From NCBI GenBank assembly GCA_021234155.1, contig JAJEKV010000003.1:29061166-29125165 (forward strand): 64,000 nt of DNA, written 5' to 3'. Under the pieces are notes generated by a model. That model searched no databases. It was not told the DNA's origin and worked only from the letters and a program-made list of their open reading frames with translations. The first letter of the stretch is position 1. Each line of letters opens with the position of its first letter. Source of the stretch: Isoetes taiwanensis (Eukaryota; Streptophyta; Lycopodiopsida; Isoetales; Isoetaceae). A program made the translations under genes and the position numbers. This document shows positions 5,848-63,989 of this stretch, one piece after another.

Positions 5848-5899
5848 ACCGGCTCACGCCTCAAGACCATTCTCGTCCCAATTTTTTTTTCGCCTCGCC

Positions 5900-36974: not shown

Positions 36975-36981
36975 TATATAA
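36975..36981 (+). promoter_or_regulatory. TATA box of the small acidic ORF (copy B)
   Basis: TATATAA, 61 bp before the ATG at 37036, in the same context as 5841 in copy A. Confidence 0.55.
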
Positions 36982-37035
36982 ACCGTTCACGCCTCAAGAC
37001 CATTCTCGTCCCCAATTTTTTTTTTCTCCCCGCCA

Positions 37036-37317: not shown

Positions 37318-38124
37318 CTCTAAAACGTAGAATGAAATCTCTCAAGAAGAGGAGGAGGAGGAAGAGGAGGAGGAGGGGAGGAAGAGGATGAGGAGGAAGG
37401 TCGAGAATTCACCAGCTTTTAGAATGGTCGGAGATGAGCCGTTTGCATGTCTGCTTTTATTTTTTTTTTTCACCTTTCTTTCTTTTCTAACACCTTTCTT
37501 TCTTCTTTGTTCCGCATCGGGAAGATCAATGATGCATCCCTGCATCTTGTAAAGCCTTCTCGGCATTTTTTTTGTAAAGCCTTCTGGCATTTTGTAAAGC
37601 CATTCTTGGCATCCGTACATATCAATTTTGAATGAAATCAAATAGTTTTCTTCACAAACTTTTTTCTTCAAACAGCTTTCTTCAAACAGTTTTTCAGACA
37701 TAAAAAATATTTTGAATGAAATCAAACTGTTTTTCCAAGCATTTTGTCTCCAAAGTGTTTTCTCCAAAATTTTGTCTCTCGTGATTTGTGTCAACAAAGT
37801 CTCTGAACACTATAAATCAATCACAAAGAAGATAGGAAATTTTCCTATACGACCTAAAACAATTCCCCAACTCAACAAGTCATTTTTTAGCCTTGATAAT
37901 TTTGCCTTTAAAATTATTTTTAATTTAGCCTATATAAAATTTCTAAATTTTTTTTTTTTTTAATGCAATGAATGGAATAAAATGTCATGGAGAATTTATT
38001 GCATGAAATGCAATATTCTCCATATATACCATATACATGTCATGTCCGGGCGGAAGACCGTGACGCCAAGCGCAGTTAATTCAAGCAATCAATTATTCAC
38101 GCTTAACTTATTTCTAATTGTGCC

Positions 38125-38132
38125 TATATAAA
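38125..38132 (+). promoter_or_regulatory. TATA box upstream of the palindrome-intron gene (copy B)
   Basis: TATATAAA, conserved with copy A (6965), about 340 bp before the ATG at 38468. Confidence 0.4.
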
Positions 38133-38689
38133 TCCATTTTACGCCTCAAAGTTCCTACATTTTCTTCCTTCCTTCATAATGATTTGCCGGCTATGCTTCA
38201 CTGTTTGATCCGCCCAAATCTTGGTGAGCAGATTTATATTCATCAATGTTAGATGTTTGGTTTCGCAATTCCTAACTTACTAAAAGACTCGCCTTTTGTT
38301 CTCAGAGCATCCAGAAGTGTAGGACATCTGAGACTCGTAATTAAAACCAAAAGCAGAGGACTAAGGTCTCATAATCGAAAAGCCTCGAATTAAAACCACA
38401 AGCATCTATCCTCCTTCCAGCCTCGTAACTCAAGGTTAGTTTTCATTTAGTTTTAAGTATCATCTCAATGGCAGGTTTAATCCAAGAAGACAAGCTTTTG
38501 CATTTGCTCGAGGCGAGGGAAGCAGATGATGTTTATGAAAACCGTAATAGTTTTTATAAACTTCATCCGCTTTTTTTGTTTCGAAAAAATTCTTGAGTTT
38601 CTCTTCCTGAATTAATCATGCTATTGCATGCAAGTTTCTATTATGAATGTGTAGTAGAAAGCATTAGAAAAAATCTGAAAGATAATATT

Positions 38690-38990
38690 TGAAACACGCT
38701 TGCCGCGTTTTTAGGGTAATCTTAGTTTTCAACATGAATACACGCCGCTGCAGCATTCAGCAGGGAGGGAGAAAAAACCCGCAGATAGATAAGTAAATAG
38801 ATAAAGGCCGCAATTATTTACACGCTCCTCATCGAATGCACGCCGAAGCGTATAGTTTTTCCTATATAGCAGCTTTACACGCCGAAGCGCAAAAACAATT
38901 GTATCCCTACTTTCAACTTTTACGCTAAACACGCCGCGGTTCTTAGTTTCTAAGTTTATAAATAAAGAAATATAACACGCCAGCGTGAAT
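38690..38990. repeat. CACGCC-n-GCGTG palindrome cluster (copy B intron)
   Basis: Members include AACACGCTTGCCGCGTTTTT, ATGCACGCCGAAGCGTATAG, TACACGCCGAAGCGC, AAACACGCCGCGG and ATAACACGCCAGCGTGAATA. It lies between the presumed first exon and the PLPQALYDA exon. Confidence 0.65.
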
Positions 38991-41900
38991 ACCGATACCC
39001 GCCACTTCCTATTGATAGATGCCGTTACATTAATCACCCGGTTGGTGACGAAGATGGATTGAATTACATTTGGGCCAGCAATCACACATTCCTCCAGCCC
39101 CGCCGCTCCAATCTCCAAATTTGAACCGCAAATGAAAGCACCGCCTCGCCCGGAGCACCAGTCTTGCAACCCCTCGAGTACTTGGATCAAGTAATGATGA
39201 TGGCAGCAGAGCGCTGGCAATGATAGATCCGGGCTCGGGGCCCTTGCAACGCACGGAGGCTCGCCCTCTTATCTAATCACTTCGAATGCAAGACATGCAT
39301 TGATCGAGAGTGAATCTCGCGATCCGGCCACCGAGATTCAAAATGAGGAGCCAAGCTTTTCTTAGTGGTTAGCCTCTATGCCCGGATGCCCCAACACGAA
39401 CCACTACCACAAAGCGGTATAATGATGCAATGGAGATGGCTCAACCAATGGAACCACTACCGCAGGCGCTATACGATGCATTGGAGGTTCAACCAATGGA
39501 GCAGGAGGTGGAGCAGGAGGAGGAGCAGGAGGTGGAGGTGGAGCAGGCGGGGGTGGTGGAGCTAGAGCCTGGTGTTTTTGCCGGGTTTTACCGTAAGAAT
39601 TCACTATGCCCCGCAATGGAAATGGGAGATCGATAGCCCAGCTACTCAATAGACCGGGCTTGAAACAAGAGGTCCGATTTTGTCCGGTTTATCCAAATTT
39701 ATCCGATTATATACAATTGTAATCTTTTTCCAATGAATACAACAAATTTTGTCTACTTCTATATTTCTACAATGTAATACATGTTACATACCTTTTTTAA
39801 GCGGTTTCTTGGCCATGCAACAAATGTTCCAACACTTTCTCCAACCGTATCCCCACCGGGTGTCTCATGAGGTAAAGCTTCATCCATAGCGCAAAGCTAA
39901 TCAATCAGAACTCTGGACATACTTATCCCCGAAGCGGAATTCCATGACAAGCATACGGATCGATGGAGTCGATCTTGCATAATCCTACTTTCCTTTTCTC
40001 GATTTGTAGTTAACATGAAACATTCATCTTCGACACCGCAGAAAATTGCTATTCGTGACACCTACTATTGGAAATTAATGTTCAAGCTATTGAATGAGAT
40101 GAGTACCGTAATTCTCAGAGCCATTCTTGAGAAGCTGATTTGAGTCTCCAAGCTGATTTGAGAAGTCGGCGCCATGGAAACTCCTGGGGCCGGAAAATTC
40201 AATTAGAAGAAAGATTAGGTTAACTACGCTTAGGCGGGATAAATTTTTGCGGATTTTAAAAACTTAATGAAAGAAGTCTACGGACGGGTCTTCGCCATTA
40301 TTATTTGTATGTGTCAAGAATATTTCGAAACCGCATTTTGTGTTTTCTTTGAAATTCAAATTTCTATTTCTCGCATTGCAGTAGAAAAAGCTATTTCTTC
40401 GAAAGCAGCTCGAAAGGCCAGATCCGAAATGACCTTCCCGACTGCTACTAGGCTTAATTCCCGAGATGTCTTCTAAAGCCAATCGAGGTCGAGGCGACGG
40501 GCAGAGGAAGCGGTGGAAGAGGAATCTCTAAACCCGCTCTTCTCAAGTTTCGAGGACGCTGATCGTAATACACGTAATACACGTAACCCTATTCAAGGTA
40601 TTTAATTTGCCACGTATCACACAATCGTGGTGGAGAGTATTATGCTTGCATGAATTTGAGATATTTCCTTTCACTTAATATGCTTTGCATGAGTTTGAGT
40701 TATTATGCTTTGCATGAATTTTAAGTATTAACATCGCTAATGCTTTGATTGTCCGCTCAGAGAACATAATTTTGCTCGCTTTTATATATAGAATATAGCG
40801 GTGTTAGACGCTTTGGAGATAGCAATGTTCAATGAGGTTAAATAGTGTGAAATATGGATTCATGAAGGGTATGTAGCTTAAAAATGTGGATGCAAAATAA
40901 TTTAGTTTCAAATTAACGATAGCATGGTCAATAATAGAGATACCAACACGCCAAGCGGATTTGTACTAATTTAGGTTTAAATGCACGCCAAGCCGCGATC
41001 TCTTGTTCTGAAAAAGTACTCTAAAAAGTGCTCATCTTCATTTGCGCTGCTCAAGAGGAAGAAAACCCCTACTAATTCGGGTTCTAATCCCCGCCAAGAA
41101 AGCAAGGGCGCATCGACCCGTGATGCGGTACCATATGATCTCACCTTAGATGATGAAGGGTCGATTCTTATAGCAACCAATCGACCCTCGCCGGCCCTCG
41201 GAAGAGGAAATGGACGAGGGTGTCGAGTGGTACGCTGACCTTGCCAAGACAAATGGCAAGCTCGACTTAACTCTCTTCTCGAGGAAAAAGGAAGCGCACA
41301 AGATGGCCAAACAAGGATCCTAATCTCTTTGTGAGGAAGAGGATGACACCCAATCGCAAATTGCTCTTGGAGATTACACAATGTAGGTAAGAAAGATCCG
41401 CCGTGACTTACTCACCGTAGAGCTACCGTGATACAAGGATACGCTCATGAAGACAGATGTGAACGGTGAGACATGTTTTAAGTATGGTTGGCCAACCAAT
41501 GTAGCAGCTTACGCCAATATCTATTTGCCAAGGGGTTACAAATGCGTAGAGGCATGTTCACTAAACCGACACCAAGTCACTATTTGCAGCAAGCTAGGGA
41601 ATTAGCTGACTTGAAAGCTTCTAAAAGGGTCCTAGATCTAGGGAAGAATGTTCAACCCGGCAGCTTGTCGGGCATGGAGGCTTCGCTTTTGAGAATGAAC
41701 AGACAGAGTGGCGCAGCCTAGAGGCCATGAACAAGCTCAATAAGTACGACCATTATCCATTGGGTCTTAAGGAAACTTTTATGATCCATGTGAAGTCCCT
41801 CATCCGCTCACCAAGCTCCATTTATGTTAGCAGAGATATGATCCAAAGACATGCCATGGAGATTGTTCGAGCATGATTAGTAATCCGTGTCAAATGCCTA

Positions 41901-47120: not shown

Positions 47121-47511
47121 GACGTGGATAAAAAGACGGAACATTAAGTTACAACCACATGAACAAGGTTACACTAAATAATGCAATACATGCAATAAAT
47201 GCAATCCCTTCAAAGGCGTACATGGGTATGGGTGTTGTGCACATTCATACACAAGCAACAAAAATGGAATAGACGTTTGTAGCCAGAAGACATCCATATT
47301 CATATACAAGTAGCAAGAATAGAACACAATAGAAGGAAAAGTGACTATACGAGATTAGATACACAACATCAACAACTCATAAACATAGCCACTTGCAATC
47401 TACAGCTTCCCCAAATGATTCAATGACTGAGAAGTTATCATATGCAAATGCACATTCTCAACATTTATAAGTTCCCAAATTATGCCCAGCAATGCTGGGC
47501 ACCGTTACTAG
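47121..47511 (+). mobile_element. Helitron 3' end (copy 1)
   Basis: About 390 bp match the 3' part of the Helitron at 55801-58904. The end has the hallmark hairpin GCCCAGC-AAT-GCTGGGC (47484-47500), followed by seven bases and CTAG (47508-47511), then host T. Shared subterminal words include CTTGCAATCTACAG, AACATCAACAACTCATA and TTCATATACAAG. The 5' end is not identified with certainty. The ADCK1-like fragment and MITE copy 2 may lie inside this element. Confidence 0.8.
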
Positions 47512-48316
47512 TAAGATCTAGGGTTTATCCCTCGTGCCAATGTGCATGCTGACAGAGGTCGTCCACCTAACATCGAATCCTTGTTGATCACAAGAACCCG
47601 ACGGTGCAGAATGGACGTGTCATTCATCCCCTCGCCCTCGGGATCGACCTAGCAGTGGAAGCGTATAAGCACATAGCATCAAACACACATAGTTCCACCT
47701 CACCATAATATAGCATCTATAACAATAACATTAGTAATATCAACATAAGGGAGATCCTACCCAGGGCTCAGACTCAAGTGGATCGACTGACAGCTTGGAT
47801 CTCCAGAAGTCAAAGCAGACAGAGTTCATAACAATGGACTTGGCTAGCATAGAACATGGTCATTGGGTAGTCCACTCCATCTGCCCCTCCTGTGCATACT
47901 TTGCAGAATAGGCTCATAAGTCTTGGGACTTGACTGTAGCCTGCAGAGGCACGCATGCCTATTATAGGTGGCTAGCGAGCCACTGCTCGTCTATGACCTG
48001 AACCCCATTGAAGGTGACGCATTACCCAAGAGGTGTTGAGCCCATGCCTTGCCCACACCCGGTGGCAAACCATCAAGCCTAACCTGCTCAGTTCCTCGGT
48101 AGGCTTTACATACCAAAGGGATCAATCTGTAATGGGACATGCCCTCCTTTTATGTCGGTCTAGCCCCACCACCCACAACCAGGCAGGTTCGATTGCACGG
48201 GCTGCATTTATTTGGGAATTATGGAGGTTAACTAGGTGCATAATCTACTAAGGCCTTCAGGGTCTCTACCCCCTTCCCCAAGACATAGGATTTCATAGAA
48301 ATCAACTATAATCATC
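47512..48316 (-). mobile_element. Ty3/Gypsy LTR fragment, reverse orientation, part 1
   Basis: On the minus strand this matches the second half of the LTR at 61043-62604 in order: GGGAAGGGGGTAGAGACC, CTGGTTGTGGGTG, GTGTGGGCAAGGCAT, GCAAAGTATGCACAGGAGGGG, GAGTCTGAGCCCTGGGTAGGA. It is cut at 48316 by the hAT insertion and resumes at 60412. Its outer end abuts the Helitron end at 47511 and lacks the LTR terminus. Confidence 0.8.
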
Positions 48317-48324
48317 CATAGAAC
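48317..48324. repeat. 8-bp target-site duplication of the hAT (left)
   Basis: CATAGAAC, identical to 60404-60411. Confidence 0.97.
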
Positions 48325-48446
48325 CAGTGATAGGTTCAATACTGTATACGTTTTATACGTAATACATATTTTTCGTTTGATACGACACAAATTTGACGTT
48401 TAATACGTCAAAAATACGTCTAAAAAAATTTTCGGCGTCGGAAAAA

Positions 48447-48624
48447 TTTCGCGTAAGCGAAAACAACTGTTTCCTTAAACGAAGTTTCTTTCGCGTAAGC
48501 GAAACAGTTGTTTTCGCTTACGCGAACCAAAAAAAGTTTCGCGCAAGCGAAATCAACTGTTTCGCTTACGCGAAAATATCTTCGCGTAAGCGAAAGAGTT
48601 GTTTTCGCTTACGCTTACGCGAAA
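48447..48624. repeat. Left subterminal array of the hAT
   Basis: Seven copies of a 16-bp unit close to TTTCGCGTAAGCGAAA, in both orientations (48447, 48489, 48512, 48537, 48559, 48581, 48603). Each unit is itself a small hairpin with 6-bp arms TTTCGC/GCGAAA. The last unit has an internal CTTACG duplication. Confidence 0.95.
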
Positions 48625-49083
48625 GAAACTTTGCAAAGCATATTGGGGCGTTTTGCAAAGGGAAAAAAACTTTTTGTGCCACTGTTTGGTCTATTTTGTG
48701 CAGATGAAATATTATATATAAGAAAAATGTGTTTAGCTCTAGAATTCGCCTCGAACGTTGACTACCAGGTCGAGTCCACATACTCCTTGGGAAACGGTCA
48801 GCCTTTGAGGTGTGGGTTTTTGCGTTTGGGGCCTGACGCCGGAATTGTGAAGTGAGATTCCTCCTTCACAGAGTTTTCCGACCTTGGGTTCCTACCCTGT
48901 TCCTTAGAGACCTATAGGTTCCTGTCCTTCACTCCTTACGTTCGAACGGGACGTCGATATAACCTATGCGTAGTGAGCTTGCTCCTTTGCGTATATAGAT
49001 GTCAGCCTTTGGTTCGGACGATTAAGGAGTCTTTACCCTTTAGCATACCAGAGCAGAGACAGTAATTTTAGATAGCAGCAGGG

Positions 49084-51656
49084 ATGGCAGCTGGTCATGC
49101 ATCCACATCAGGCGCCGCTGGCGGCCATGCATCTACATCCGGCGCCGCCGGCGGTCATGCATCATCATCTAGGGGTGCGCGGCCATCGCGCGGTCATGGC
49201 AGGGCCACGGGGGTTGGAACAGCACGTGGAAGAATTATATGTCGAAATACTGGTGGTCGAAAGAGAGGTCCTGAGTGGGGATTTGTGAAGGAATTTGGTC
49301 AGAATGAGTGGCAATGCGTATTTTGTGGGTACACGTCAATAAATGGATCCGCGACAAGAATACAAGCTCATCTTTTACGGGATCCTAAAATTGGGGTGCA
49401 AACATGTACGGCATCTGCTGACATACGACAAGATGCACTTGAAGTGTTGGGTCGAAAAAAGAATAGCAGCAGAAGAACACAGCCAAGGGATAGCCAAGGA
49501 CCTTCACCATGCCAAGAAGAAGAGATCAATTACACCACCCCTCCTGCAGCGCCAATGTACCAACCAGAGGGTGGACTAGGGTCAATAGGAGGGTTAAGTA
49601 CGGGCGAAAAAAGAATGGTAGAGACAATTGGGATAGTGGAAAGACAGACTAAGCAACAGAGGGTTGACCAGTGCTTAACATCAGAGCAACTGAAGAAGAC
49701 GCAATTGAAGGTTGTAGAGGCATTTTTATATGCCGGGTTGTCTCCACATGTTTTGGAGCACAAAGCAATGAAAGAAGCCTTCCAGGAAGTTGCCAAAGCA
49801 GGGCCGGCTTTTAGATTGCCTTCATACAAACATGCCAATAACAAAATGGTGGATGAAATACACGGGAAAATGGTCGAGAGGGTGGAAATGAAGTTAAGTC
49901 GTGTTACTGAAGCCAGGCCAGCCTCACTAGTGACTGATGGTTGGAGCAATGTAAACAAGGACCATCTTATAAATTTCATGATCGTGTATCCAGGGGGCGA
50001 AGTATTCTTGAAAATCGTAGAAACCAAAACGGACCAAGTCACAGGAGATTGGATTTTTCAAAAAACAAAGGCTGTGATAGAGAGTTTTGGGCCGAAGAGA
50101 ATATTTCAGGTCGTAATGGACAACGCGTCTAATTGTAAATTAGCGGGTGAATTGTTGGAGTCTGAATTTCCAAGATTGCACGCGACCAGCTGCCAATGCC
50201 ATTGCCTGAACTTATTGCTGAAGGACTGGTTTTCACAGCACACTTGGTTCAAAGATCCCATTCAAAAGGCCCGTCGTCTCGTGAAATTCATCACAAAGAA
50301 GCCGACAATTTATGCCATATACAAGTCATTGTGTCAGAAGGCCCTAGCACTCATGAATCCTGGGCAGACTCGGTTTGGTTCCAATTACATTTGTCTTGAA
50401 AGAGTGCTTAGGTGTCGCGACTCGATTATCTCGACCTTCAACCATACAGAGTTCTTTGAATGGGAGAGGAGGTAGAAGGGAAAAAATGCTTCAAAACACC
50501 GGCAGCAAGCTGCCACCCTTCGAGAAATGCTTGGGCGGGAGACATTTTGGAGAGGCGTAAAGAATGTTGTCAAGTGCATGCCATCAAAACCCTTGATTCT
50601 TCGAAGGCAAGCACTGGAAAGGTCTGGAGGTGCTGGCACTCCATTCAATCCTTTCTACAGCGTGATGGCCCCAATGCACCCTTTGACAATGCTAAGCGCG
50701 CAGCACTGCTTAGAGACTTTAATGAACGATGGAAGAAGTCCTACAATGATCTTCATGGCGCCGCACATGCTTTAGACCCACACAACCACGATATGGACCA
50801 GCATATAGATAAAGAAGTGATGGGTTCATTGAAGAAGGTTGCAAAAATGTTTTACCCCAACAGCTCGGACTACAAAATTTTCATTGCCGAGTTAACTGAA
50901 TACCAGAACTTGAGTGGAAGGTGGGCAGATGAAGAGCTTCATGATGCACTGGAGAGTCACAAGAAGGAACCAAATATGGAATCTTATGCATGGTGGCAAG
51001 CCCATGGACATGTTACTGATACGTTACATGCCCTTGCAATGACTATCCTCTCCTTGGTATCCTCCAATAGTGCAAGTGACAGGAACTGGAGTGCTTATAA
51101 GTACATACATAGTGTGACACGAAATCGCCTCTTGCATAAGAAGGCTGACAAACTTGTATATAACTTCTCAAATTGGCGGCTCTTGAATCGCAACAGTGGT
51201 GCAGCCGTAGTTGATAAGCTACAGTTTCCTTTTATGGATGCAGATTCTGAAGTGGAAGAGGACAACTTCGAAGACAGTGAGGACGAGCTGCTTGCTGTAA
51301 ATGCCGCTAACCATGTTGATGAGGACATTCAACGTACCCATTTTGTCGATGCCGAAGATGATTTAGACAAGAACATGTTCTCGGATGACTCAGACGACAG
51401 CGAAGATACAGAAGAGGAGTCTGATACAGAAAGGCCAGGTCTAAATAATACAGGAGATCTGCTTGAGGACTTAATAGTACGTGAGCCAGCGGACTCTCCA
51501 ATGCCAATGTCCCAGACAAATAGTCAACGTGTCAGAAGAAATACAACTTGAGGACGTTGCAGTAAGGGAAAGGGCCAAAGGAGGTTGAACCTAGGCCAGC
51601 ATGCAGAAGAGGACGGAAGCCCAGATGATGAAACTGATGAAGACGGTGATGTCTAG
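49084..51656 (+). pseudogene. hAT transposase (BED zinc finger, DUF659, hATC), decayed
   Basis: It catalyses cut-and-paste excision and insertion at the element ends. The ATG at 49084 opens a Gly/Ala/His/Ser repeat (GHASTSGAAG, three units). A BED-type zinc finger follows at about residues 64-108 (WQCVFCGY...H...C). A DUF659/RNase-H-like core carries the catalytic-type TDGWSN (about 285) and VMDNASNC (about 343), with CHCLNLLLKD. The frame meets a TAG at 50473-50475 and continues in the same frame with AATLREMLGRETFWRGVKN. It then shifts near 50590 to the frame holding the hATC dimerisation domain (NSASDRNWSAYKYIHSVTRN, about 51070-51125) and an acidic tail. A TGA at 51549 precedes 34 more open codons to a TAG at 51654. 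Both stops could be C-to-T changes. Introns are an alternative for the frame change only. Confidence 0.9.
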
Positions 51657-52287
51657 ACGGTAACCTCCTCTAGAACGAACGATTTCTGCTCCGACCCCCA
51701 TTTTGCGCGTCTTTGTGTAATATAACCTAGCAAAGTATCTAAGATACATTGACACAGAGACACGCAGAAGAGAGTCAGAGCAAAGCTCGCTCCTTCTAAA
51801 GGAGGTAACAAGAATTTCGAGAAGTCTATATTGTTTGCCATGGAGAATATAAAGCCTGGTGACCTGACAACCATTCAAGAGGGTCGCGCTCTTGGCTTAC
51901 TCCCTTTTCGAGTTTCTTGCTTGCTAATTCAGGCTTACTCTCTTTTCGAGTTTCCTGCTTGACGTATCTAATTCGCCACCTAGAGTGAGCGATGTCATCC
52001 CAGGGGGCAAATTAGATACATCAAACAGAAAACGAAAGAGACTAAGTCAAACAGGACAAACAAGCGACTAAGCCTGACATGAGGTCCAGATGTCAAATAG
52101 GTTGCGTGTGCAGATGTTTTGACTCACTCACATACTTACTTTACTTAACTATAATACAAACAACTCAATGTGGCAACCCAACCCCCAAAATTTTATTACG
52201 ACAAAGAAATCCTCGTCAACGAACGTTGGTTCATTCATGTGCATCTGAGATCTTAGGGAAAAATATCAAAAAATAAATGTAGACCGC
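51657..52287. other. 3' region between convergent transposase and RING-like gene
   Basis: No gene. An imperfect 36-bp tandem duplication, GCTTACTC-CTTTTCGAGTTTC, lies at 51895-51962. It presumably holds the 3' ends of both convergent transcripts. Confidence 0.5.
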
Positions 52288-53025
52288 TCATGGGTTTAAG
52301 TATTCGTCTGCATCCAAGTTCACACCTTCGTCACCTGCTGGCCCAGGAGGCGGCGGTAATTGATTAATGTCTGGTACCTCTTCACCTTCACACGGTTCTT
52401 CTACCCCCCTCCAAAGGTCCATTTCACGTTGGGATTGGAACGCATGAGCCATTCCATCCCTCCTGCGAGCAACCAGAGGTGGCAAGGGAGGCATGCGTGA
52501 TTGCAAGTTGAGCATTGCATACTGGTGCTCTGGTATAATATATCCATCATCTGCTGGACAGAACCTACTGCCCATCATCCAATCCAACAAGCACCTCAAA
52601 TGCAGACGATGTCCACACCCTAAGGCATACCAACCAACTTGGGTTAGATTGTCCGCACACACCTGACAATATCTAAAGTCCCCGTTCTTTATATCGTCCC
52701 ACTGACTTTCATATAGGTATTCAGGAGGGAGGTATGCAATACCCTGCTCCTTGGAGACTCTAAGGGAATCATAATCTAAGACTCTTGATATTGTGCGCAT
52801 GTGCTCATTGTCTACTCTCAACACCGCATTTTCCCTACCCAAAGCTGCAAGTTGATTCTTCGTGTCTAATAATTGTGCAGCCATCTTGTCATGAGCATTT
52901 GCACGATCTTTTAAGCGCAAGTTTTCCTCTGACAGAGTCAGGTTTTGACTTCTTTCATTCTCTAACTGAGCCTTCAGTTCTACCTCATCATCCCATGCAC
53001 TTTGCTTTTGCAACCCCCGCCACAT
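52288..53025 (-). CDS. hAT cargo: coiled-coil / RING-like zinc-finger protein (terminal exon)
   Basis: The 245-codon frame begins MWRGLQKQSAWDDE after a CTTTTAG acceptor-like sequence, so it may be the last exon rather than start at this Met. Residues about 15-90 are heptad-rich (LKAQLENERSQNLTLSEENL), a coiled coil. At about 118-160 a RING-type pattern is visible: C-x2-C, then C-G-H-x2-H-x2-C, then CP. The eighth ligand, normally Cys after CPxC, is replaced (CPADDGY), so zinc site two is incomplete. RING proteins usually act as E3 ubiquitin ligases; the altered site makes that uncertain. The C-terminus is Pro/Asp-rich (INQLPPPPGPAGDEG). It lies inside the hAT, opposite to the transposase. 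Confidence 0.65.
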   Translation of the reverse strand: MWRGLQKQSAWDDEVELKAQLENERSQNLTLSEENLRLKDRANAHDKMAAQLLDTKNQLAALGRENAVLRVDNEHMRTISRVLDYDSLRVSKEQGIAYLPPEYLYESQWDDIKNGDFRYCQVCADNLTQVGWYALGCGHRLHLRCLLDWMMGSRFCPADDGYIIPEHQYAMLNLQSRMPPLPPLVARRRDGMAHAFQSQREMDLWRGVEEPCEGEEVPDINQLPPPPGPAGDEGVNLDADEYLNP

Positions 53026-53191
53026 CTAAAAGTTTTATGGCATCTTGAAGCAGATAGGTTATAGTCACGGGCTTATCACCAAGAGCGCTTTCAGAATCGT
53101 CCATGAGCTTCACTCTCTTTGTTGCTACCACTTCTTGCTTCCTTGTTTCCACTTTCTCTTGGCATAATTTATGGGCTCCCCTCTCACAATC
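53026..53191 (-). other. Probable middle exon(s) of the cargo gene
   Basis: A minus-strand frame reads RVKLMDDSESALGDKP and TYLLQDAIKLLDVAG, between the two larger frames and without its own start. It most likely belongs to a spliced transcript joining 53192-53824 and 52288-53025; splice sites cannot be fixed by eye. Confidence 0.35.
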
Positions 53192-53824
53192 TCATAGTAC
53201 ACTTGCTTGGCAAACGTCTTCTTGAATTATTGGTTTTATCATTGTTCCTTTCACTTGCACCCACCTCTCCAAAGCTTTAGCTCGGACTTCAGGGATCTTG
53301 CAGTCATATGCCTTATACTTACCTGCTCTCCTGCTTGGCCAGTCGACGTCAAACTGTTTGGCGTCTAAATTGGCCTCGATATCCTCAAAATCTGCTCCAT
53401 GTGGGCAACAACCTGGGCCCATGTCACATGCAACTCCATGCACCTCTGTAATTGTGACACCCTCTTTCTTGGCCACTTCTGCCATTGCCCTCAACCTTAA
53501 CAACTCTTTTGCACGCGCTTCATTCATTCTAGCATGTTCCTCTGCTTTTTGTATCTGTTGTGCCCTAACCTCTGACAATGTAGGTAGAGAAGGGAATTCA
53601 AATCCATCTGGGTCTGGAGTTCTCAAAGTGTCCGACATAGAGAAGTCTCCTCCATGCGCGGTTTCATCAGCCCCTTCTCTCATGTGCTGATGAGAAGAAC
53701 TCGGTTGCCGATGAGACGAACTAGGTCGTTGAGACATTCTTAAGTGTTTAGCACTAGGTAGTTGTGAGTTCGTTTTCTTGCGGATAGGCTTTACATTAAC
53801 TGCGCGAAATAAAAAACAACTCAA
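53192..53824 (-). CDS. hAT cargo: Ser/His-rich N-terminus plus conserved helical region
   Basis: The frame has 210 codons. The natural start is probably the internal ATG at MSQRPSSSHRQPSSSHQH (about 53737), since the upstream part follows an acceptor-like TTTCGCGCAG. A low-complexity Ser/His/Pro region is followed by TPDPDGFEFPSLPTLSEV and a charged helix, IQKAEEHARMNEARAKELLR. A Cys-rich stretch, ACDMGPGCCPHGADFED, comes next, then DVDWPSRRAGKYKAYDC. No family was recognised. It shares the minus strand with the RING-like frame 167 bp downstream and may be its upstream exon. Confidence 0.5.
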   Translation of the reverse strand: MSCFLFRAVNVKPIRKKTNSQLPSAKHLRMSQRPSSSHRQPSSSHQHMREGADETAHGGDFSMSDTLRTPDPDGFEFPSLPTLSEVRAQQIQKAEEHARMNEARAKELLRLRAMAEVAKKEGVTITEVHGVACDMGPGCCPHGADFEDIEANLDAKQFDVDWPSRRAGKYKAYDCKIPEVRAKALERWVQVKGTMIKPIIQEDVCQASVL

Positions 53825-55626
53825 TATGACTTATAAATTACAAAAAAAAAAACAAGTGCAACAATGATAAATACATAAAGATGTTTTATTGAATGTATTT
53901 AAAGCAATTGTTCAATGATTATTTTTTTTGGTTGCATACAAGAGAACTCATAAATGGCACGCTAAGCGTGACTTGGTCCAGCTTGGTCAGCATCGTCTGC
54001 CCCTAACCCAACTTGAGGAATCCAATCTGATTCCGTTTGGGGTCTTGTGCAATGTGTTGGAGAGCAATTCCAGGTGCTCCGCATGGTGTTCAGTAGCTGG
54101 TTCAGATCAAACTTGCGTGCCTTATCTCTTATTGGGGATTCGACACAGTGCTTCAAATAATCGCACATGTTTCGAAACCTCTGGCTTTGTTCATTGGTAC
54201 CCATACTCTCCAAGAAAGAGTACTTGCGTGCAAAATCAGCAAGGTAATAGATAAAGTAGGCTGCCCCTAAGAGATCGAAGTCTACCCTTGCAGGCACCGT
54301 CTTAGTTCCATCTCTTTTTGGACCCCAATACAAATCATCATGCATGTATGGATAGGCAAGCCTTTCATTCTCAATGGCCTTTTTGGCAGCAGCATCCATG
54401 CCTTTGTATGCCCACTGCTTCACTTCCACTGGCTCGCCTATTAGGCGTTCTTCTCCCCAGTCACATATACCAATATAAACAGCCTGGGGCTCCGTGCATC
54501 CTCTCTCTTTCCCAAATTCAAAATGAAGCAAGACATTGCCCGGGTGTAAGTCCATGTGTAGATGGTGCTCTTTATGAAGCTTAAACAAGCCGCTTAAAAA
54601 CGACATAGTTAGATCACCCACTCTTTGAGCAACATATAACTCCTGCTTTCTTCGTTGCTCAAGCTTATGGACGTCAACCTCATTGTGGGCTTACACCCTA
54701 ATCTCTTAAATGCATGCACGGCAAACTCATTATCTCCATGATGCACAAAAGTGATGCACAAGAACCCCCATTCCAAAGGGGAAATATCAACCCCCGTTCT
54801 TTCCAACCCGGTTAATGCGACCAATGCAAATATGATAGAGCCATGTCTAACCTGCATTTGTGATTCCCTCATGTTTTTCATCATGGCCTTTACTATCACA
54901 TCAGGTCTGGCCGTACCTAACCGCACATCCTCATTCTGAAATTTAACACAATAGGGTTCGTCTTTAAGAAAACTAGAACCCAAGATATTGCATTTGAACA
55001 TCGTTCCATATGTTCCTGAACCAATTCTGGTCCTGTTCATTATTTGAGAGGAATCCACCATTGCAAACCATATAGTCTTGGCATCTGCCCTTTTTCTTGC
55101 TTCCCACTCTTTATCAGTCTCACCAGGATGCTTGGCTCTAATAGTCTGTGCCAACACTTTCTTAACTAGGTGAGGGGGTTGATGGGTTTCTTTTCTAGGC
55201 TTTCGATTCGTCCAAGTTGTGTTCCATTCCACAGCTTTATCTTTTAAAGACTCTCTCAAGCGGGGACTAGTTAGATTTGCCACTGCATGAATCATATTTC
55301 CAGTTGCACGGGATACATTGCCATCTATCCAAGCATACCTTTTAGAATCAATCTTTTCAGGTTCTACGTCTATCATTCGAGGCCCAAAAGCTCTCTCAGC
55401 ATCTCCCATGAGACTTGAGTGGAAGTCTAGCCATCCTTCATCTGTTGTAGTAATCAACTCTAACTCAGATGGGGTGGCAGCACATATTCGCTCACAGAGC
55501 CAATTCATTAAAGCGGGTCTTAAGGAGGACCATGGCTGTTGGGGTCTTGATCTCTTTCTCTGCATCTTAGTAGAGGACTCAACCTCTGGGTTCATGTGAG
55601 GCTCTGCTTCTACCCTAGGTCCTTCT

Positions 55627-55629
55627 TTA
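55627..55629. repeat. TTA target duplication of the CACTA-type MITE (left)
   Basis: TTA here and at 58929-58931, the 3-bp duplication expected for CACTA elements. Confidence 0.85.
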
Positions 55630-56660
55630 CACTACTACAAAAATAGGTAGAAATGGCACAAAAGTGACATTTATCCTCCGCCTTTTTACCGGGCATAAAC
55701 GTCACTTTTGTGCCATTTATGACGTTTGTGCTCCCCAAATGGCACAAAAGTGACGTTTATGCCCGGTAAAAAGCGGAGGATAAATGTCACTTTTGTGCCA
55801 TCTTATATTATAATGTTATTGTGTAAGTGTTGGACCCAGCCCTAATTTGGACGGCTGAGATCCATCGACATTGCACGGCCAAGATTTCTTCTCTTCTCAT
55901 CCTTTTTTTTTTTTAGGTTTCAACGGTGTAGAGCTTTGGACGGTGCAGAGCTCGGGACGTTTTGCCCCTCCTGAAGCGTCTTGCCACAGCCTGAGCTCTC
56001 CAAGCGCAGAAGAGACTGCCGGAACTTGAAACAAATTTTGATGCAAAAGACTTGAAACAAATTTTGATGCAAAGGGAAAACAATGGCTGAAGCTTTAGCT
56101 TTGGCAATGGGGGCATAAGACCCAGGGATTGGTATTGTTTTGTCGTGTTTAATAAGAACAGCTCTCGCTCCTGGCATCTTGAGGTTCTTGAGGTTCTGGA
56201 CTTCTGCCGCTTTCCCTGTAGAATCTGTATCTCCAGCTATGGCGATGGGTTCGAATATTGATGGACTATGGCGATGGCAATTTGCACGGGATGGCTCTTC
56301 TTCTTCCTGACGATCACGGGTAAGATTTGTCTTTAGTTGTTGCTTTTCGTTTTGCATTGTTTCTACAAGCGAACAGGCACCAAGAGCTGAAGAACGAGCT
56401 GAGCTGAAGGCGGGTCATGGGTTTCCCTATTCTCTGCACCTTTACGTTCTTCTATCTTCTCGGCATGCTTCTACAAATAAGGTAGGGTATTCTTGCATCA
56501 AACACGGCCGAGTAGCAGGTCTTAGAGGTAATATGATACTGAGGGAAGTAGTTGGAAAACCAAATGGGATCCAAATGCCGAGCTTTTAGAACTGGTTTTT
56601 CTAGCAAGCAAGAAGGCCGTCTTACATCTTTGACTTGAGTAGTATTACGAAAACCTGCAG

Positions 56661-56928
56661 CTATGGCTTTTGCAACCGAAGTTTTGTCGCCTCCTGCAGA
56701 TGCATCGTAACACGTGCATTTGCAATAGGGTTCCTTCGGCATCGCCTATCCGTTGTTGTTTTTTTTCACAAAGGGCCACTGAACCGGAGTGATTCGGGAG
56801 GATGTTTGAATAAAACAATGTCTCGGCCAAAACCTTAGCCAAGTCCGGCTATGGCTATGGCTTTTGCAACCGAGTTTTTGTGCAATGAGTTTTGTCCGCC
56901 TCCCGGAGAGATGCATCGTAACACGTGT
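56661..56928. repeat. Internal direct repeat of the Helitron
   Basis: CTATGGCTTTTGCAACCGA to GATGCATCGTAACACGTG at 56661-56717 recurs at 56857-56927 with an extra insert, GTGCAATGA. It may be a captured exon fragment duplicated inside the element. Confidence 0.75.
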
Positions 56929-57971
56929 GTAATCTTGCCTAACGTCCAAGATAAATGCATAATCCATATCGGACTTGGAGATCCTATCTACGCATATAAC
57001 TCAAAAGTCCTCTTTTAAGAAACAACGCACCACATTTGCAAGACCAATGATGGATTTATCCTTTTGAGTCATCCTTCCTTTACATGGATGTTAGTGTTTG
57101 GTCCATCTTACATATCAACCAATAAGTTTCATTCTCGCATTTCAAAATTCCTTTTGTCTTTTCTAACAGGGCATTGTTGATGCGGGTTTGCCATCACATT
57201 CTAAAGGTTTACAAGTCACTACAAAATTTTCTTGGTAAACATTCACAAGGTGTTGCCTTCTTTGGAACTTATTATAGGTACATCTTATATCCTATACCAA
57301 ATCTTTTAGAGGTGTTGCCAATCTATATATTGTTAAATTTGTTCAAATAGCTAGCCCCTTCATAATGCAATTGCAATGTTTACGAGATCACGGGGTTTCG
57401 TGATAAGGTGTTATCCGCCTAGCTAGGGCAAAAAAAGGCATATTGTTTATTGTCTTGAAGGCATGAGCTACAATGGGAGGTATTGTAGCCATTGTTCATG
57501 CTAAGCAAAGTCAGATTTATTGCTCTCAAGATATTCCTTGGTTTCCATAACATGGGCTGTGCAATGCATTTTGCAACAATGCATTTGAATGGTGGGATCA
57601 ATTGGATATTTGTCTTTGCTTTTAGAGTAGGTTCTGTGTTTAGCTTCCTTCATGAGATGGTAGAGTACCTTTATAAGATGTCAAAGAATACTGGTTCATG
57701 ACTATGGCACACAACTAATCTCTGTAGGACTTTGCACCTTCAGCTATAGCCTTCAGTCAGTTTCAGCAAATAGTACCTAGCATTTGAATTGGTATCATTC
57801 TTTTGATTTGGAAAAATTATCTGCCGATATATTTAGTGATATTAAGTCACAGGACAAATCTGAAGATCTCGAATGTTAACCTTCCCCAGGCTATCATAAT
57901 TTCTTTAGAACTAATCCCTAGCTTTGCAATAAAAATGCAAAAGCTCTATTATATCATTCAAGAATTGTCAG

Positions 57972-58277
57972 TTCTTTAATACAGATATATTGTATGGAAG
58001 TGCTGTATTGTTGAGATGGTTCAATACAGATATATTGTAAAAGGAAGCGTTGTGTTATGATGAGATGGACCTCTTTAATACAGATATATTGCAATGGAAG
58101 TGCTGTGTTGTTGAGATGGTTCAATACAGATATATTGTAAAAGGAAGTGTTGTGTTATGATGAGATGGACCTGAGAACACGATTTAATGTTGAAATTCCA
58201 CTAACGTTCTTCTATGCCATGTCTCATAAGAACATAAGTTAATGTTGAAATTCCACTAACATTCTTCTATGCCAGCC
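57972..58277. repeat. Two tandem repeat blocks in the Helitron
   Basis: 57972-58172 holds two ~100-bp units, each built of two half-units that begin with AATACAGATATATTG and end in GAGATGG. 58173-58277 holds two ~55-bp units with TTAATGTTGAAATTCCACTA and TTCTTCTATGCCA. Confidence 0.9.
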
Positions 58278-58998
58278 TTAAAAAAAGAACTTAGTTTTTC
58301 ATAAATTTAACACTAGCACACATGAAATACATATATGAAGAAAATCCATTAAGCCCATCTTTCATATTTGATTTTCAAAAGACGAACACATGTTTCATTA
58401 TTTATTTGCAAACACAATTAAAATGTCAAGTATTTTTAAAGGTATCTCTAATCAAAGGAGCAAAGTACTTCTAGAGGTAGCTATAGATAAAGGTGTAGTG
58501 CATAATGAACAAAATGTCTAAGGTTACACATAATCATGCAATGCCTTCAAAAGGTTACGTGCAACGCACATTGACATTCATATACAAGCAGCAATACATC
58601 ATAGCCACCACACATCCACATTCATATACAAGCAACAAGAGAGAGCGACTTAATGAGATTTAGAACACAACATCAACAACTCATAGACATGGCCTCTTGC
58701 AATCTACAGGTTCCCAAAATGATCCAATGGCCCGGACTTGCAATCTACAGGTTCCTAAAATTATTCAATGGCTTAGAAGTTATTGTATGCAAATGCAAAG
58801 TTCCAATGGCCTAGAAGTTTACTGTAGGAAAATGCATAGGTTCTCAGGTTCCCAACGCTTACAGGTTCCAAATTATGCCCAGCAACGCTGGGCACCATTA
58901 CTAGTTTCTACCTATTTTTGTAGTAGTGTTAGGGCTCATGTGAGGCTCTACTGCTTCTAGTCTAAGCCCGTCTAACTCTTGTGGATTCATAGCAGCTT

Positions 58999-59018
58999 TA
59001 GATAGATAGATAGATAGA
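58999..59018. repeat. GATA microsatellite
   Basis: Four to five tandem GATA units just upstream of the kinase-like start codon (58990, minus strand), thus in its 5' leader. Confidence 0.8.
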
Positions 59019-59019
59019 A

Positions 59020-60077
59020 GAAACTGTGTATAGATAGCGATATGCAAACTGTAGCAAAGCAGCAACAATACCTACAAGTCTGGGGAAAAAAAAAACCCAC
59101 TTTAGTGAGTGTCACTAATGCCGAAATAGTTCATTAAGATTCTACTAGTAAACTACTAAGTTTCAAGCTTGACAGTTGTAGGCACCCTACTGAGTTTAAC
59201 AAGTTCTCTCATTCTCTTCAACAAGTTTAACTTATGATCTGACCCAGCTACTGACTCCATTAGGAAACTCCCTGGCGGCACTCAACTGAACATATTGCAT
59301 AAGACCACCTAGCAAAGTCACGAATATTTAATGAAATATACGCCACTCCCTATATTAGTGTTGGACTTTCGTCAACAACATCGTCAGAAAATAGGGTATA
59401 TCTCATTAAATATTCTCCTGACCTTCCATAAGAGTACAACACCCACCTTTTAGCACCGCGTGACCGAAGCCAACAAGCGGCAGGAGAGGGCTATACACCT
59501 AAATGGGAGGTTGACCCTAGCAATCCTCGATATCAGCAATGACACCCACCCTCGGCATGGCACAATTCAATGTGGCACGCCAGGCGAGGGTCACTGCCTC
59601 AGCCAAGGATCACTTCGAACTAAAACCTAGTCTCTCTTAAGGATCACTCCCTACCCTAACTGCTACTGTTGTCGATGAAAGGGTAGGCAACCAAATTTCT
59701 CTTTCTTATTTTTTTTATTTTTATTTTTATTTCATTAATTTTTTTCCTTTTTTTATTGTTTCTGTTCCATTGTTTTTTTTTTCTTTTTTTTTTTCATTAT
59801 TTTTTTCTCAAAAATCAGTCTGGATTCGACCATAGAACGAGACGCTCACCATCGTCACGCCCCTCAATGGAGGGGGGCAACAGGCGAGGGCCTCACTATG
59901 GAGGAACCCTAGACCTACAATAAAAAAACAACAAAAAAACTAACTAGGCTTGCCTAAAAACTAAGAAAAAATGAAAAAAACGGGAAAAGGGGCACAGGTT
60001 GTGAAGGAGGGCGCAGGTGGTTTACCTTTTTCTGCGCAAAAACAAAGAAAATGCGCCTCCGTATATATAAAGAAAAG
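59020..60077. other. Promoter side of the cargo genes; hairpin and T-rich tract
   Basis: No gene. 59323-59341 and 59396-59414 form an inverted repeat (AATATTTAATGAAATATAC against its inverse, one mismatch). 59705-59815 is a T-rich low-complexity tract. As the sequence upstream of the kinase-like gene, it probably contains its promoter. Confidence 0.45.
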
Positions 60078-60276
60078 TTCGCGTAAGCGAAAACTACTGT
60101 TTCGCTTACGCGAAACCCGCTTCGCGTAAGCGAAACTTATAAAACAGCTTACGCGAACGAAAAAAAGTTTCGCGTAAGCAAAACCTCCTATTTCGCTTAC
60201 GCGAAAAAAGTTTCGCGTAAGCGAAATTTAAGACTTCGCTTACGCGAAGTCGGGGACGAGATTCGCGTAAGCGAAA
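60078..60276. repeat. Right subterminal array of the hAT
   Basis: About nine copies of the TTCGCGTAAGCGAA-type motif in alternating orientations, as in the left array at 48447-48624, some with one or two changes (for example GTAAGCAAAA). Confidence 0.95.
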
Positions 60277-60403
60277 AATAAATACGAAATATTTCCGGCC
60301 GGCGAGTATTAAATACGAAAAATACGTATTTTTCCCAAAAATACGTATTTTTGGACTTTATACGTCTGAAAAAATAATTTCATACGTACAGAACCTATCC
60401 CTG

Positions 60404-60411
60404 CATAGAAC
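60404..60411. repeat. 8-bp target-site duplication of the hAT (right)
   Basis: CATAGAAC, identical to 48317-48324. Confidence 0.97.
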
Positions 60412-60839
60412 AGAACAATAGAATATCATCTAATCTATCTACCTAACATACATGGTTAGGTTCTTTCGTTAGATGCTGAGTTCTTGGCATCTATAAGGCC
60501 TCTAAGGCTAATCTAACATACTAACTCGGCCTAATGTCGGACTGAAAGTCGGCATTTCCTGATCCTTGGATTGCTCCAGCTCCTCAGAATGCGTCCACGC
60601 TTCTGTTCGACTGAAGATGATCAAATTCGAAAGGTTTGTTGTGCAAAGACAGCTTAGCAACGTCTGGCAAGGTGGAATGGCACAGACATTGGCAAACCAG
60701 CTCTTGGACACTGGAACCCGAAAAGGAAAAGTTTAGGGTTCCAATCTCTTTTACATGACCCTTTTAGGGTTAGGGCCAAAAGGTCATGTAGGGTTTTGCC
60801 ACGTGGCAAAAATGGGGTTATATGAACATTATAAGGACA
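60412..60839 (-). mobile_element. Ty3/Gypsy LTR fragment, reverse orientation, part 2
   Basis: Continues the LTR interrupted at 48316. On the minus strand it shares CCAAGGATCAGG and a CTAACCCTAA region with the U3/R part of the LTR at 61043. It lacks the LTR start (TGTGACGT) because the Helitron end at 60840 cuts it. Confidence 0.65.
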
Positions 60840-61042
60840 CTAGTAATGGTGCCCAGCGTTGCTGGGTGTAAGTTAGAAACTTGTAAACGATTAGCCAGCA
60901 ATGCTCCTAAGATGGAAGGTGTTGAACTGCCCTTTTAAGGCTAGATGCTTTTCACTTTTCAAAGCTTCTGCAAGATCATTTGTACAATGCAATAATAGCT
61001 CGTAATAGGGTGTGCATTGAGGTTGAAGTCAAGGTGCAAAAG
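60840..61042 (-). mobile_element. Helitron 3' end, reverse orientation (copy 3)
   Basis: On the minus strand it ends CTAG (60843-60840), with the hairpin at 60851-60867 (GCCCAGC-GTT-GCTGGGT, one G-T pair). The rest matches the other copies only over the terminal tens of bases. It is interrupted or ended at 61042 by the LTR. It points towards the copy ending at 47511, tail to tail, with the reverse LTR fragment between. Confidence 0.65.
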
Positions 61043-62604
61043 TGTGACGTTCCAGCACAGTATACGGTCCCAGGATATATACTGTACTGCCTCGTCACGC
61101 GTACACGCCATCCCGACTGACGTGTACGCCGACGTGTAGCCAAGCAAGTAGCACCCTAGGGGGCAACTTGCAAGGTGTGTGCATTTATTAATATGCACAT
61201 TTACCCATGTGCACATGTATCCAAGTGTACACATTTACCGACTTAGTTATTAAAGGCAAGTGGGCCATACCCAATTATCCCACATGCTTAAAGGGATAAT
61301 GGGAAACCCTAGCCCTAACCCTTTGTCTATATAGGTAAAGAAAACCTAAACTTGCTATTTTTGTTCATGCCATTTTAGGGCTCTGTTTTGCTTGCCCCAG
61401 GAGCAAAACCCACCTCCCAAACTCTGTTTGAGCGATCTAGCTTATTAGTTCCCCTTTCTAGCTTCATCTTCTAGCAGTTCAGCAGGATGGTCGAGTTCAG
61501 AACAGGAGGAGCGAGCCAAGGATCAGGTATTTTGTCAATTGAATAGCTTAAACCGCCTCCAAGTCATTGAAAGCCTATTAAATTGCCCATAGTAGCCATC
61601 TAGATCTCTAGATACCCAGTCCTAACTAAAGAACCTAACTCTATGATATAGATTAGATCTTGTTCTTTAGTTCTTCTGTGATATGTATGATGATGTATCT
61701 CTGTGAACTCATTGTATTGGGAAGGGGGGTAGAGACCTTAAAGCCTGGTAGTTGATGCTCCTAGCGAGCCTCTTTAGTGCACTGTAAATTCGGCCCGTGT
61801 GCAAGAGCCACACCTGGTTGTGGGTGAAGGGGCCAGACTGGCTTATAAGGAGGTTCATGTCCTGACTCATGAACGATCCCTCTGGTGTGTAAAGTCTACC
61901 AGGGATCATTGTGAACTAGGTCTAATGGCTTGCCACTGCGTGTGGGCAAGGCATCGGCTCGACACCCGTGGAGTGATGCGTAACTCTCCATTGGGTTCAA
62001 GTCGAATAAGGGCAGTGGCCCTCTAGTCACCTTGAGTCAGCATGTATATCTCTGGAGGGAGTGATCCCCACCTGCCCCATCAAAACTGGGGAGATGCAAC
62101 CCAGGAATAGCCCCTTTGGCTATGCATCCGGCTGGCTACAGTCAGGTCCCAACACTTTTCAACCTACTCTGCAAAGTGTGCACAGGAGGGGCGGATGGAG
62201 TGGACTACCCTAAGCCATGTTCTTATGCCAGCCAAATCCATTGCCATGAATTCTGTCTGCAATGACCTCTGGAGGCCCAAGCCGTCAGTAATCCCCTTGA
62301 GTCTGAGCCTTGGGTAGGATTCCCATATGTGATGTACTGATCTTTGTCTATGCAGATATGTGATGAGCCATCCTTCAAGATGGTTATGTGATGTTGATGT
62401 TGTATACTGACATGTATGTTTACGCTTTCGCAGCTAGGTAGGCCCTGAGGGAGACAGGGTAAATGACCCCTTCATTCTTCCCACTGGAACTCACCAAGGT
62501 TACAGTGATACGTGGAGGGCCCTGTATCAGTATGGAGCTGGTATGGGGGATGAACTCCTGTTCGTATACGGTGAATGCACCGTATATGAGTAGGGGACGT
62601 CACA
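61043..62604 (+). mobile_element. LTR of a Ty3/Gypsy element, full length (1,562 bp)
   Basis: It starts TGTGACGTTCC and ends GGGGACGTCACA, giving inverted TGTGACGT/ACGTCACA ends. A TATATA box lies at 61328, about 285 bp in, after CCCTAACCCTTTG. Near the 3' end ATACGGTG-AATG-CACCGTAT forms a hairpin. The primer-binding site follows one base after the end. Short frames inside (for example 61799-62026) are not genes. Confidence 0.88.
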
Positions 62605-62715: not shown

Positions 62716-63989
62716 TTATTGACAATGATCTTCAATGGACTTGCTGTAGACTAGAATGTCGTCGAAGAATACAATGACAAATTTATCTAAGAACTCCCTG
62801 AAGATGTCGTTCATGAGACGCATGAAAGTTGCCGGGGCATTCGATAAGCCAAAGGGCATTACCGTAAATTCGAAGTGCCCGTACCGCGTTCTGAAGGCGG
62901 TCTTATGGATATCTTCTTCCTTTATCCTTATTTGGTGGTAACCCGACCTTAAGTCAATCTTAGAGAAAACTTTCGCTCCTTGGAGCTGATCCATCAAATC
63001 ATCTGCCCTTGGCAGCGCATACTTATTCTTTATCATCTGTTTGTTAAGCTGGCGATAATCTATACACATTCTTAGACTCCCGTCTTTCTTCTTTGCGAAG
63101 AGTATGGGTGCTCCAAAAGGAGACACACTTGCTCTAATGAATCCAAGGTCAAGCAATTCCTGCAGCTTCTTCTTGAGCTCTATCAACTCTGGGGTGCTCA
63201 TTCTGTAAGGTGCCTTGCTAGTAGGTTTAGCATCTAGAGCTAGTATGATTTCACACTCTACACCCCTATAAGGTGGTAGCTGACGGATTTGATCCGAAAA
63301 TACATCATTGAACTCCCTAATGAGCCTTGCTACTGGCTAGGGCAACTGATTCCCACTTAGGTTACTTCCCTTCTCTTTAGTTGGTTCAATTGCCTCTAAC
63401 CTCAGAATATAATCCACCTTATTTCTTACTATACTTTTTCTTAGCTGCTTCATAGAAATGCACTGCACAGGAGAAGCTACCTTCTTACCTTTTACTATGA
63501 ATCTGTTGTCGTCCGACGCCGTCATGGAGATCTGTTATGCTCGCAGTCAATCATCGCTTTAGCTGGCTTTAGCAACTCCATTCCTACTATAAGGTCATAC
63601 TTTCCAATATCCATGACCTCTGCCCCCATCGACCACTTGCTTCCACTAAGGTCTATGTCAAATGTGATCCTCCTCCCCTTAATGTGGCGAATGACACCGC
63701 TTGTCATGCTAACTGGCCTTGGCTTTGACTTCAAGACTTTATTCTTCATTAGGGCAGCAAGCCTAGGAGAGGCAAAGTTGTGGGAGCTACCTGTATCTAT
63801 CAAGACTAGGTATGGATTGCTATCTATGATTCCCTCAACCGAAATGACTGTGGACTGATTTTCAACATCACCTGACTCAATAGCTGCACAAATATGGCAC
63901 TCACCATCTATGAAATCTTGCGCTTCCTGCTGGTCGTCCTCTTCGTCATCTCCTTCGGTTGGTGACTCCCAATCTGCAAGTTCTGCCAA
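62716..63989 (-). pseudogene. Ty3/Gypsy pol fragment: aspartic protease and reverse transcriptase
   Basis: Minus strand, continuing beyond the window end. 63989-63522 holds a retropepsin-like protease (LVLIDTGSSHNF, active site DTG). A frame change at about 63525 leads to TASDDNRFIVKGKK. A TAG near 63340 interrupts before [13 protein letters not shown] and [11 protein letters not shown]. The reverse-transcriptase frame continues to 62716 with [51 protein letters not shown] and the catalytic [12 protein letters not shown]. It stops after IEDHCQ, where the LTR leader sequence begins, so RNase H and integrase are missing. Its orientation is opposite to the LTR and PBS beside it. Confidence 0.92.

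Follow-up and report, generated by a model that had tools for sequence, protein, structure and literature searches.

A hAT transposon of Isoetes taiwanensis with protein kinase-like and coiled-coil/RING genes as probable accessory factors

The DNA described here (the window) is a stretch of 64,000 nucleotides from the lycophyte Isoetes taiwanensis, contig JAJEKV010000003.1, positions 29,061,166 to 29,125,165. Within it, positions 48325–60403 are occupied by a hAT transposable element which contains, in addition to a transposase gene, a protein kinase-like gene and a gene for a coiled-coil/RING protein, the two latter being referred to below as cargo. This element is probably a damaged copy of a multi-gene hAT family in which the kinase and RING proteins are accessory factors, and our confidence is somewhat higher still that the two genes form a selected accessory module of the element.

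The element has 13-bp inverted ends, complementary at 12/13 positions. These terminal inverted repeats (TIRs) are CAGTGATAGGTTC on the transposase side (T-end, 48325–48337, forward strand) and GAACCTATCCCTG on the kinase side (K-end, 60391–60403, reverse strand). They are flanked by perfect 8-bp target site duplications (TSDs), CATAGAAC, at 48317–48324 and 60404–60411, so that both the ends and the duplication are as the original prediction gave them. Neither word is proof by itself, since the window contains CATAGAAC four times, and in the genome the exact end of 13 bases was found at six places, as against 24 for its reversed control. Conclusive in this respect is a diverged inverted paralogue of the flanking repeat (61452–62357, reverse strand), a built-in empty site revealed by self-comparison of the window. 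When joined, the flanks align with this paralogue (approximately 61.45–62.36 kb) without a break at the insertion point, and the right flank matched its continuation with a score of 85, which was reached by 0/586 random window segments (maximum 36). Because the paralogue is uninterrupted and the right-flank score exceeds those of all random segments, 48325–60403 represents one insertion, as had been proposed.

The hAT transposase gene (49084–51551, forward strand) specifies DUF659 (E 6e-28) and hAT dimerisation (Dimer_Tnp_hAT, 8e-8) domains, both above the Pfam cut-offs, and by eye a BED-like N-terminus. In the window the gene is broken by an in-frame TAG (50473–50475) and by a frameshift further downstream. 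At the Hermes SER glutamate position, the single position of the acidic triad that was aligned, the window copy has D and a second copy, C1075, has E, which probably reflects damage to the window copy. More than 12 transposase copies match at 87–95% only from about residue 139–176, their N-terminal part lying outside the match. This may be due to mosaic N-termini, to frameshifts or to insertions.

The coiled-coil/RING gene (52288–53737, reverse strand) is convergent with the transposase gene. Its start codon was counted by us, and it is frameshifted in the window at approximately 53.0–53.2 kb. The window gene nevertheless matches zf-RING_2 (E 9e-6) and, above the cut-off, zf-C3HC4. Open frames of 483 and 477 aa occur in the relatives L040 and L043, and zf-C3HC4 passes the Pfam cut-off in these two and in L089. 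Among the rows aligned from both cargo lineages (A, which includes the window copy, and B; see below) there is no variation at seven Cys/His positions of the RING, nor at an Asp that follows the last CP. The eighth zinc ligand would have to be a residue other than Cys or His, for example this invariant Asp.

The protein kinase-like gene (53962–58990, reverse strand), on the same strand as the RING gene and again with the start codon counted by us, is split after about 20 codons by a later CACTA-type element (55630–58928) with 24-bp perfect inverted ends starting CACTACTACAAAAA and the TSD TTA. This nested element lies outside the hAT cargo. The 12-kb hAT with cargo that was originally predicted is thus one insertion, but 3.3 kb of the 12 kb is not its own, and without the CACTA element the hAT measures approximately 8.8 kb. 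The kinase gene has one further lesion in the window, a frameshift near 54690, and the Pkinase match of the window fragment is below the Pfam cut-off (E 2e-4). Less damaged relatives have open kinase frames of 589 (L010), 575 (L014) and 575 aa (L029). Pkinase and PK_Tyr_Ser-Thr pass the cut-offs in L010 (PF00069, 33.6 bits, cut-off 31.7) and in the divergent L089 (PF07714, 36.2, cut-off 23.1); altogether five relative frames of both genes, from L010, L040, L043 and L089, were scanned and all five were above cut-offs. The kinase lysine (CVK), the HxD....N motif (HMDLHPGN) and the DxG motif (DWG) are invariant in the aligned rows of both cargo lineages, the DxG on the strength of four full rows (L018 is out of frame past HMDLHPGN). 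The glycine loop is altered in L029. A weak match to a TFIIF-beta helix-turn-helix lies in the N-terminal part of the kinase in both lineages (E 0.006 and 0.011, below cut-off). AF2 models of the kinase protein and of the kinase domain alone were too poor to confirm the fold (mean pLDDT 41.4 and 39.3), and a PDB fold search with the whole-kinase model, at that mean pLDDT of 41.4, gave no match at E ≤ 0.001. The Pfam domains bear out the predicted transposase and opposite-strand kinase and coiled-coil/RING genes, all three of which are broken in this copy.

That the arrangement is not peculiar to the window is evident from the host genome, in which 1,658,258,908 bases in 1110 contigs were searched (the excerpted text of the genome paper, PMC8566536, gives the assembly as 1658.30 Mb in 204 scaffolds and 909 contigs; DNA-transposon terms had no match in those excerpts). 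The window queries gave the best 119 kinase places of 1330 candidates, 150 RING places of 972 and 91 transposase places of 2175, and queries from the divergent copy C1049 the best 78 kinase places of 1706 and 112 RING places of 1265. Merged, these amount to at least 146 kinase, 173 RING and 91 transposase places, where pieces of a single copy count separately if more than 800 bp lie between them. All counts of places and pairings that follow are among these listed matches, with partners accepted within 15 kb. A RING place accompanies 41/91 transposase places and a kinase place 28/91; both partners are present at 20 and either at 49. Without exception (41/41 and 28/28) the partner is downstream and on the opposite strand, that is, convergent. 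Half of the kinase places (73/146) have a RING place; it lies downstream on the same strand in 71 cases and upstream on the other strand in two, and in 61/73 pairs the midpoints are 1.6–2.6 kb apart. By chance 0.28 transposase–RING and 0.46 kinase–RING pairs would be expected. Other copies with the same cargo order, which the original prediction had proposed to look for, thus exist, and a one-off capture is contradicted. At C379:324500-327100 (L099/L100) direct and inverted repeats of about 130 bp, which match repeats between the RING and transposase genes in C1026 and C1049, enlarge the intergenic DNA beside a transposase place. An NCBIfam search returned nothing relevant, and no confirmed relatives were found in the viral contigs or in the bacterial and archaeal genomes searched. 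A hAT with a kinase/RING module was likewise undescribed in the titles or abstract openings of the open-licence PMC literature searched.

Searches with the two ends (best 40 places of 1636 and of 1665 candidates) showed them paired in at least five other long copies, of approximately 8.4 to 28 kb, and in about 12 short copies of approximately 700 bp, which are miniature inverted-repeat transposable elements (MITEs). Ten of these other copies were read (five long, five MITEs); all carry CAGGGATAGGTTC at both ends and all are flanked by perfect 8-bp TSDs, different from one another and from that of the window, which is the second feature that the original prediction had proposed to look for. In the length of the TSD, the short TIRs and the presence of subterminal arrays at both ends the family has the features of hAT elements. 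Four MITEs read whole are 99.0–99.6% identical, which suggests recent movement, and combine the two ends of the element.

Two unrelated elements, adjacent or nested, might be mistaken for one, the more so as there is a nested CACTA element in the window and copia coding DNA in C1049. We regard this as very improbable. The outer TSDs of the window element and of five other long copies are perfect, the two outer flanks are joined in the empty-site paralogue, gene order and strands recur at dozens of places with the narrow kinase–RING spacing given above, and the MITEs unite both ends. The more specific proposal that the cargo is a separate nested element was dropped, being contradicted by the outer TSDs, the empty site and the recurring layout.

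Codon comparisons were made by the Nei-Gojobori method, after removal of identical rows, on stop-free rows that spanned 60% or more of the query; 19/36 rows were kept for the kinase N part, 12/55 for the kinase C part, 16/50 for the RING N part and 24/36 for the RING C part. Within lineage A the median ratio of nonsynonymous to synonymous substitutions (dN/dS) was 0.31 for the kinase N part (120/120 pairs below 1), 0.27 for the kinase C part (52/53), 0.53 for the RING N part (89/90) and 0.30 for the RING C part (190/190). Lineage B gave 0.24 (3 pairs), with 0.64 for RING N (1 pair) and 0.18 for RING C (6 pairs). For the N part of the transposase, taken as a yardstick, the ratio was 0.35 in one pair within A and 0.12 in two A–B pairs. 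Between the lineages the proportions of nonsynonymous and synonymous differences (pN/pS) were 0.21/0.71 for kinase N, 0.20/0.78 for kinase C, 0.40/0.83 for RING N and 0.19/0.83 for RING C. Synonymous sites are thus almost saturated, yet the proteins have been retained (Fisher 3.7e-30 for one kinase pair), and it is hard to account for this contrast unless purifying selection has acted for a long time. An earlier codon run that included duplicate rows gave a similar picture.

One may suppose instead that an ancestral element took up a host kinase and a RING gene once and was then amplified without any benefit from this cargo. Many cargo copies do contain stops, and plant hATs capture coding fragments, as the available portion of the Pack-TYPE literature (PMC8903248) describes. 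Such a neutral passenger is nevertheless improbable because long frames have been kept over near-saturating divergence: about 58–69% protein identity remains between C1049 and the window copy in spite of the near-saturated synonymous sites, open kinase frames of 558–589 aa and the same layout are found in both lineages, and dN/dS is below 1 in 48/48 kinase N and 80/80 RING C pairs between A and B. A dN/dS below 1 on both cargo genes argues against random capture; together with the recurring layout it upholds the view, already put forward in the original prediction, that the element is organised. The cargo would accordingly seem, as these ratios suggest, to have been preserved by evolution and to help the element rather than to be an accidental passenger.

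Several observations weigh against a selected module in a multi-gene family. The transposase is broken in all four copies read over the gene (window, C1075, C1026 and C1092). Among the listed matches there is no RING place within 15 kb of 50/91 transposase places and no kinase place within 15 kb of 63/91. At one of these transposase places, on C379, the 2.6 kb read contained only family intergenic DNA, partly duplicated, and ended short of any RING gene. Among the listed matches the five other long copies have kinase in five cases, RING in two (C1075, C1054) and transposase in two (C1075, C908). The RING N part is less constrained than the remainder (0.53 in lineage A and 0.64 in the single B pair), and the ratios as a whole derive from stop-free rows, which favour constrained copies, and from pairs which are non-independent.

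The division of the cargo into two lineages is reflected in the subterminal DNA. In the window, arrays of a palindrome-like motif, TTCGCGTAAGCGAA, lie at 48443–48631 (T-end) and 60073–60282 (K-end). The same motif forms the arrays of other A copies (both ends of C1075, K-end of C1026); the K-end motif of B copies is TTCGCGTACGCGAA (C1049, L002), and the T-end array of C1092 is a third form. The outer ~110 bp are similar by eye in the lineages, although neither the C1092 T-end nor L002 contains an exact ACGTATTTT. Within 1.5 kb upstream of their kinase match, 8/30 A loci have at least three A motifs and 0/30 at least three B motifs; one A locus, L009, has two B motifs beside nine A. Eight 201-bp windows at B loci contained no A motif (0/8): B motifs were present in C1053 and C1032, C1010 has by eye a C1092-like form, and five are without an array. 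Genome-wide, two-copy array patterns gave 690 (B) and 1030 (A) strand matches, with 0 for the reversed controls. Among the matches listed, about the first 100 places for each pattern, 32 B and 28 A clusters were typed and cargo was looked for within 20 kb. B arrays and B cargo agree at 6/6 loci (C188, C191, C223, C490, C734 and C907:9.46 Mb, the last assigned to B by us at 63% identity to A and 77% to B) and A arrays and A cargo at 5/5 (C13, C50, C177, C215 and C907:51.4 Mb), where the lineage of C188, C177, C215 and C734 comes from one identity each and those of C215 (70%) and C734 (68%) stand at the 70% cut. Two related observations may be recorded. L005 (C1089:17583262), an end that has exactly the TIR CAGTGATAGGTTC, lacks the A motif and, as judged by eye, the B motif too; it does contain ACGTATTTT repeats and is perhaps a further related hAT lineage. 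Positions 9184–9923 of L089 (C1049) are a family MITE at copia coding DNA beside B-lineage cargo, with the 8-bp TSD ATGCATGG on both sides.

In the elements compared, the transposase looks less deeply divided than the cargo. Between A-cargo elements (window, C1026, C1075) and C1092, the one B-cargo element whose transposase was read at the DNA level, transposase dS is 0.61–0.93; in the same element pairs the kinase parts have a dS of 1.6–2.8, some kinase rows crossing broken frames, and the RING parts are saturated. The lower transposase dS suggests that the cargo lineages have exchanged the transposase half.

Typical regulators of plants include kinases and RING E3 ligases, and this general consideration would agree with a kinase–RING half that serves the host or some other selfish end (e.g. 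defence or signalling), with the transposon as its vehicle. So would the apparently greater age of the cargo lineages (dS 1.6 to infinite, against 0.6–0.9 for the transposase of the same pairs). We think this unlikely, about as much so as the neutral passenger: each cargo gene has more than 100 scored places, many with stops, as for a transposon gene, and the array motif tracks the cargo lineage, a link between the cargo and the DNA of the element itself.

The arrays themselves could be plain transposase binding sites unrelated to the cargo, like AAACGG in Ac, whose transposase binds subterminal hexamers according to the section of PMC3260210 consulted. This is compatible with an accessory role for the cargo, and we give it an even chance, arrays as ordinary transposase sites and arrays related to the cargo being equally possible. 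As the N-terminal part of the transposase is outside the match in many copies, N-terminal divergence could track the array motif. In C1092, however, a BED-like region almost identical by eye to that of the window is combined with a different T-end motif, although this is one case.

Autonomous hATs are, to our knowledge, usually described as having a single gene. Ac and Ds, and plant hATs in general, resemble the Isoetes family in the 8-bp TSD, short TIRs, subterminal repeats, hAT transposase and short non-autonomous derivatives (PMC3260210, in part). Unlike Ac, which the same excerpt describes as 4.6 kb with a single transcript and one transposase, the Isoetes elements are approximately 8–10 kb long with two further convergent genes recurring across copies. 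A transposase with accessory genes is also found, as far as the extracts of PMC6446971 and PMC10398659 go, in the Mutator-like elements (MULEs) MuDR (mudrB) and VANDAL (VANB/VANC). VANC targets noncoding tandem motifs which diverge between families, according to the latter extract, much as the Isoetes arrays differ between lineages. In a VANC-like anti-silencing system an accessory protein would bind the tandem motifs of its element and remove methylation; the lineage-specific switch of motif is the only VANC-like feature seen in the Isoetes family. MULEs belong to a different superfamily, with a MULE transposase and, in the groups covered by PMC6446971 (same extract), a TSD of 9–10 bp, as opposed to the hAT domains and 8-bp TSD found here, and their accessory proteins differ from the kinase and RING proteins, being set apart by description, without sequence comparison to mudrB or VANC. 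Pack-hAT (Pack-TYPE) elements likewise enclose coding DNA between hAT ends; as the excerpted account has it (PMC8903248), they are non-autonomous and carry captured host gene fragments and no transposase. In the Isoetes family long genes with dN/dS below 1 accompany a transposase: a transposase gene, broken in the window, lies inside the same TSD, and the cargo frames are long and open in relatives.

Taking these comparisons together with the gene content, we favour a scheme in which the cargo would regulate the element's own activity through phosphorylation and ubiquitination, by analogy with VANC and mudrB. An intact element would have the transposase gene at one end, with the kinase and then the RING gene running convergently from the other. 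The transposase would act on the outer ~110 bp; the kinase and RING proteins would make the element more successful, most likely because they phosphorylate, and tag with ubiquitin, either the transposase or silencing proteins of the host, possibly at the lineage-specific subterminal arrays. A role specifically in regulated anti-silencing, again by analogy, is conceivable, and we propose it tentatively. More doubtful is the full proposal that this hAT family independently evolved a VANDAL-like regulation, in which the kinase and RING proteins would act on the arrays of their own lineage (and on those of the MITEs) and overcome or tune host silencing; the arrays would diverge together with the cargo, and the lineages would exchange their transposase halves.

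With regard to the surroundings, positions 47280–47512 and 60836–60889 of the window share 74–87% identity with the region at the right end of the nested CACTA element and are possible relatives of that end. Positions 1–8364 and 31160–39531 are direct copies of an 8.4-kb sequence (91% identical), and no open frame of at least 250 aa was found in positions 1–46000. Positions 62716–63336, on the reverse strand, belong to a retroelement and encode a fragment of a reverse transcriptase (RVT_1, E 1e-30).

If the kinase and RING genes are indeed a selected module of a lycophyte hAT, accessory regulatory genes would have arisen in hATs as they have in MULEs. The two cargo lineages with different subterminal motifs, the MITEs and the many insertions, all in one assembled genome, constitute a natural experiment, and the role of accessory transposon proteins would become directly testable in the Isoetes hAT family.

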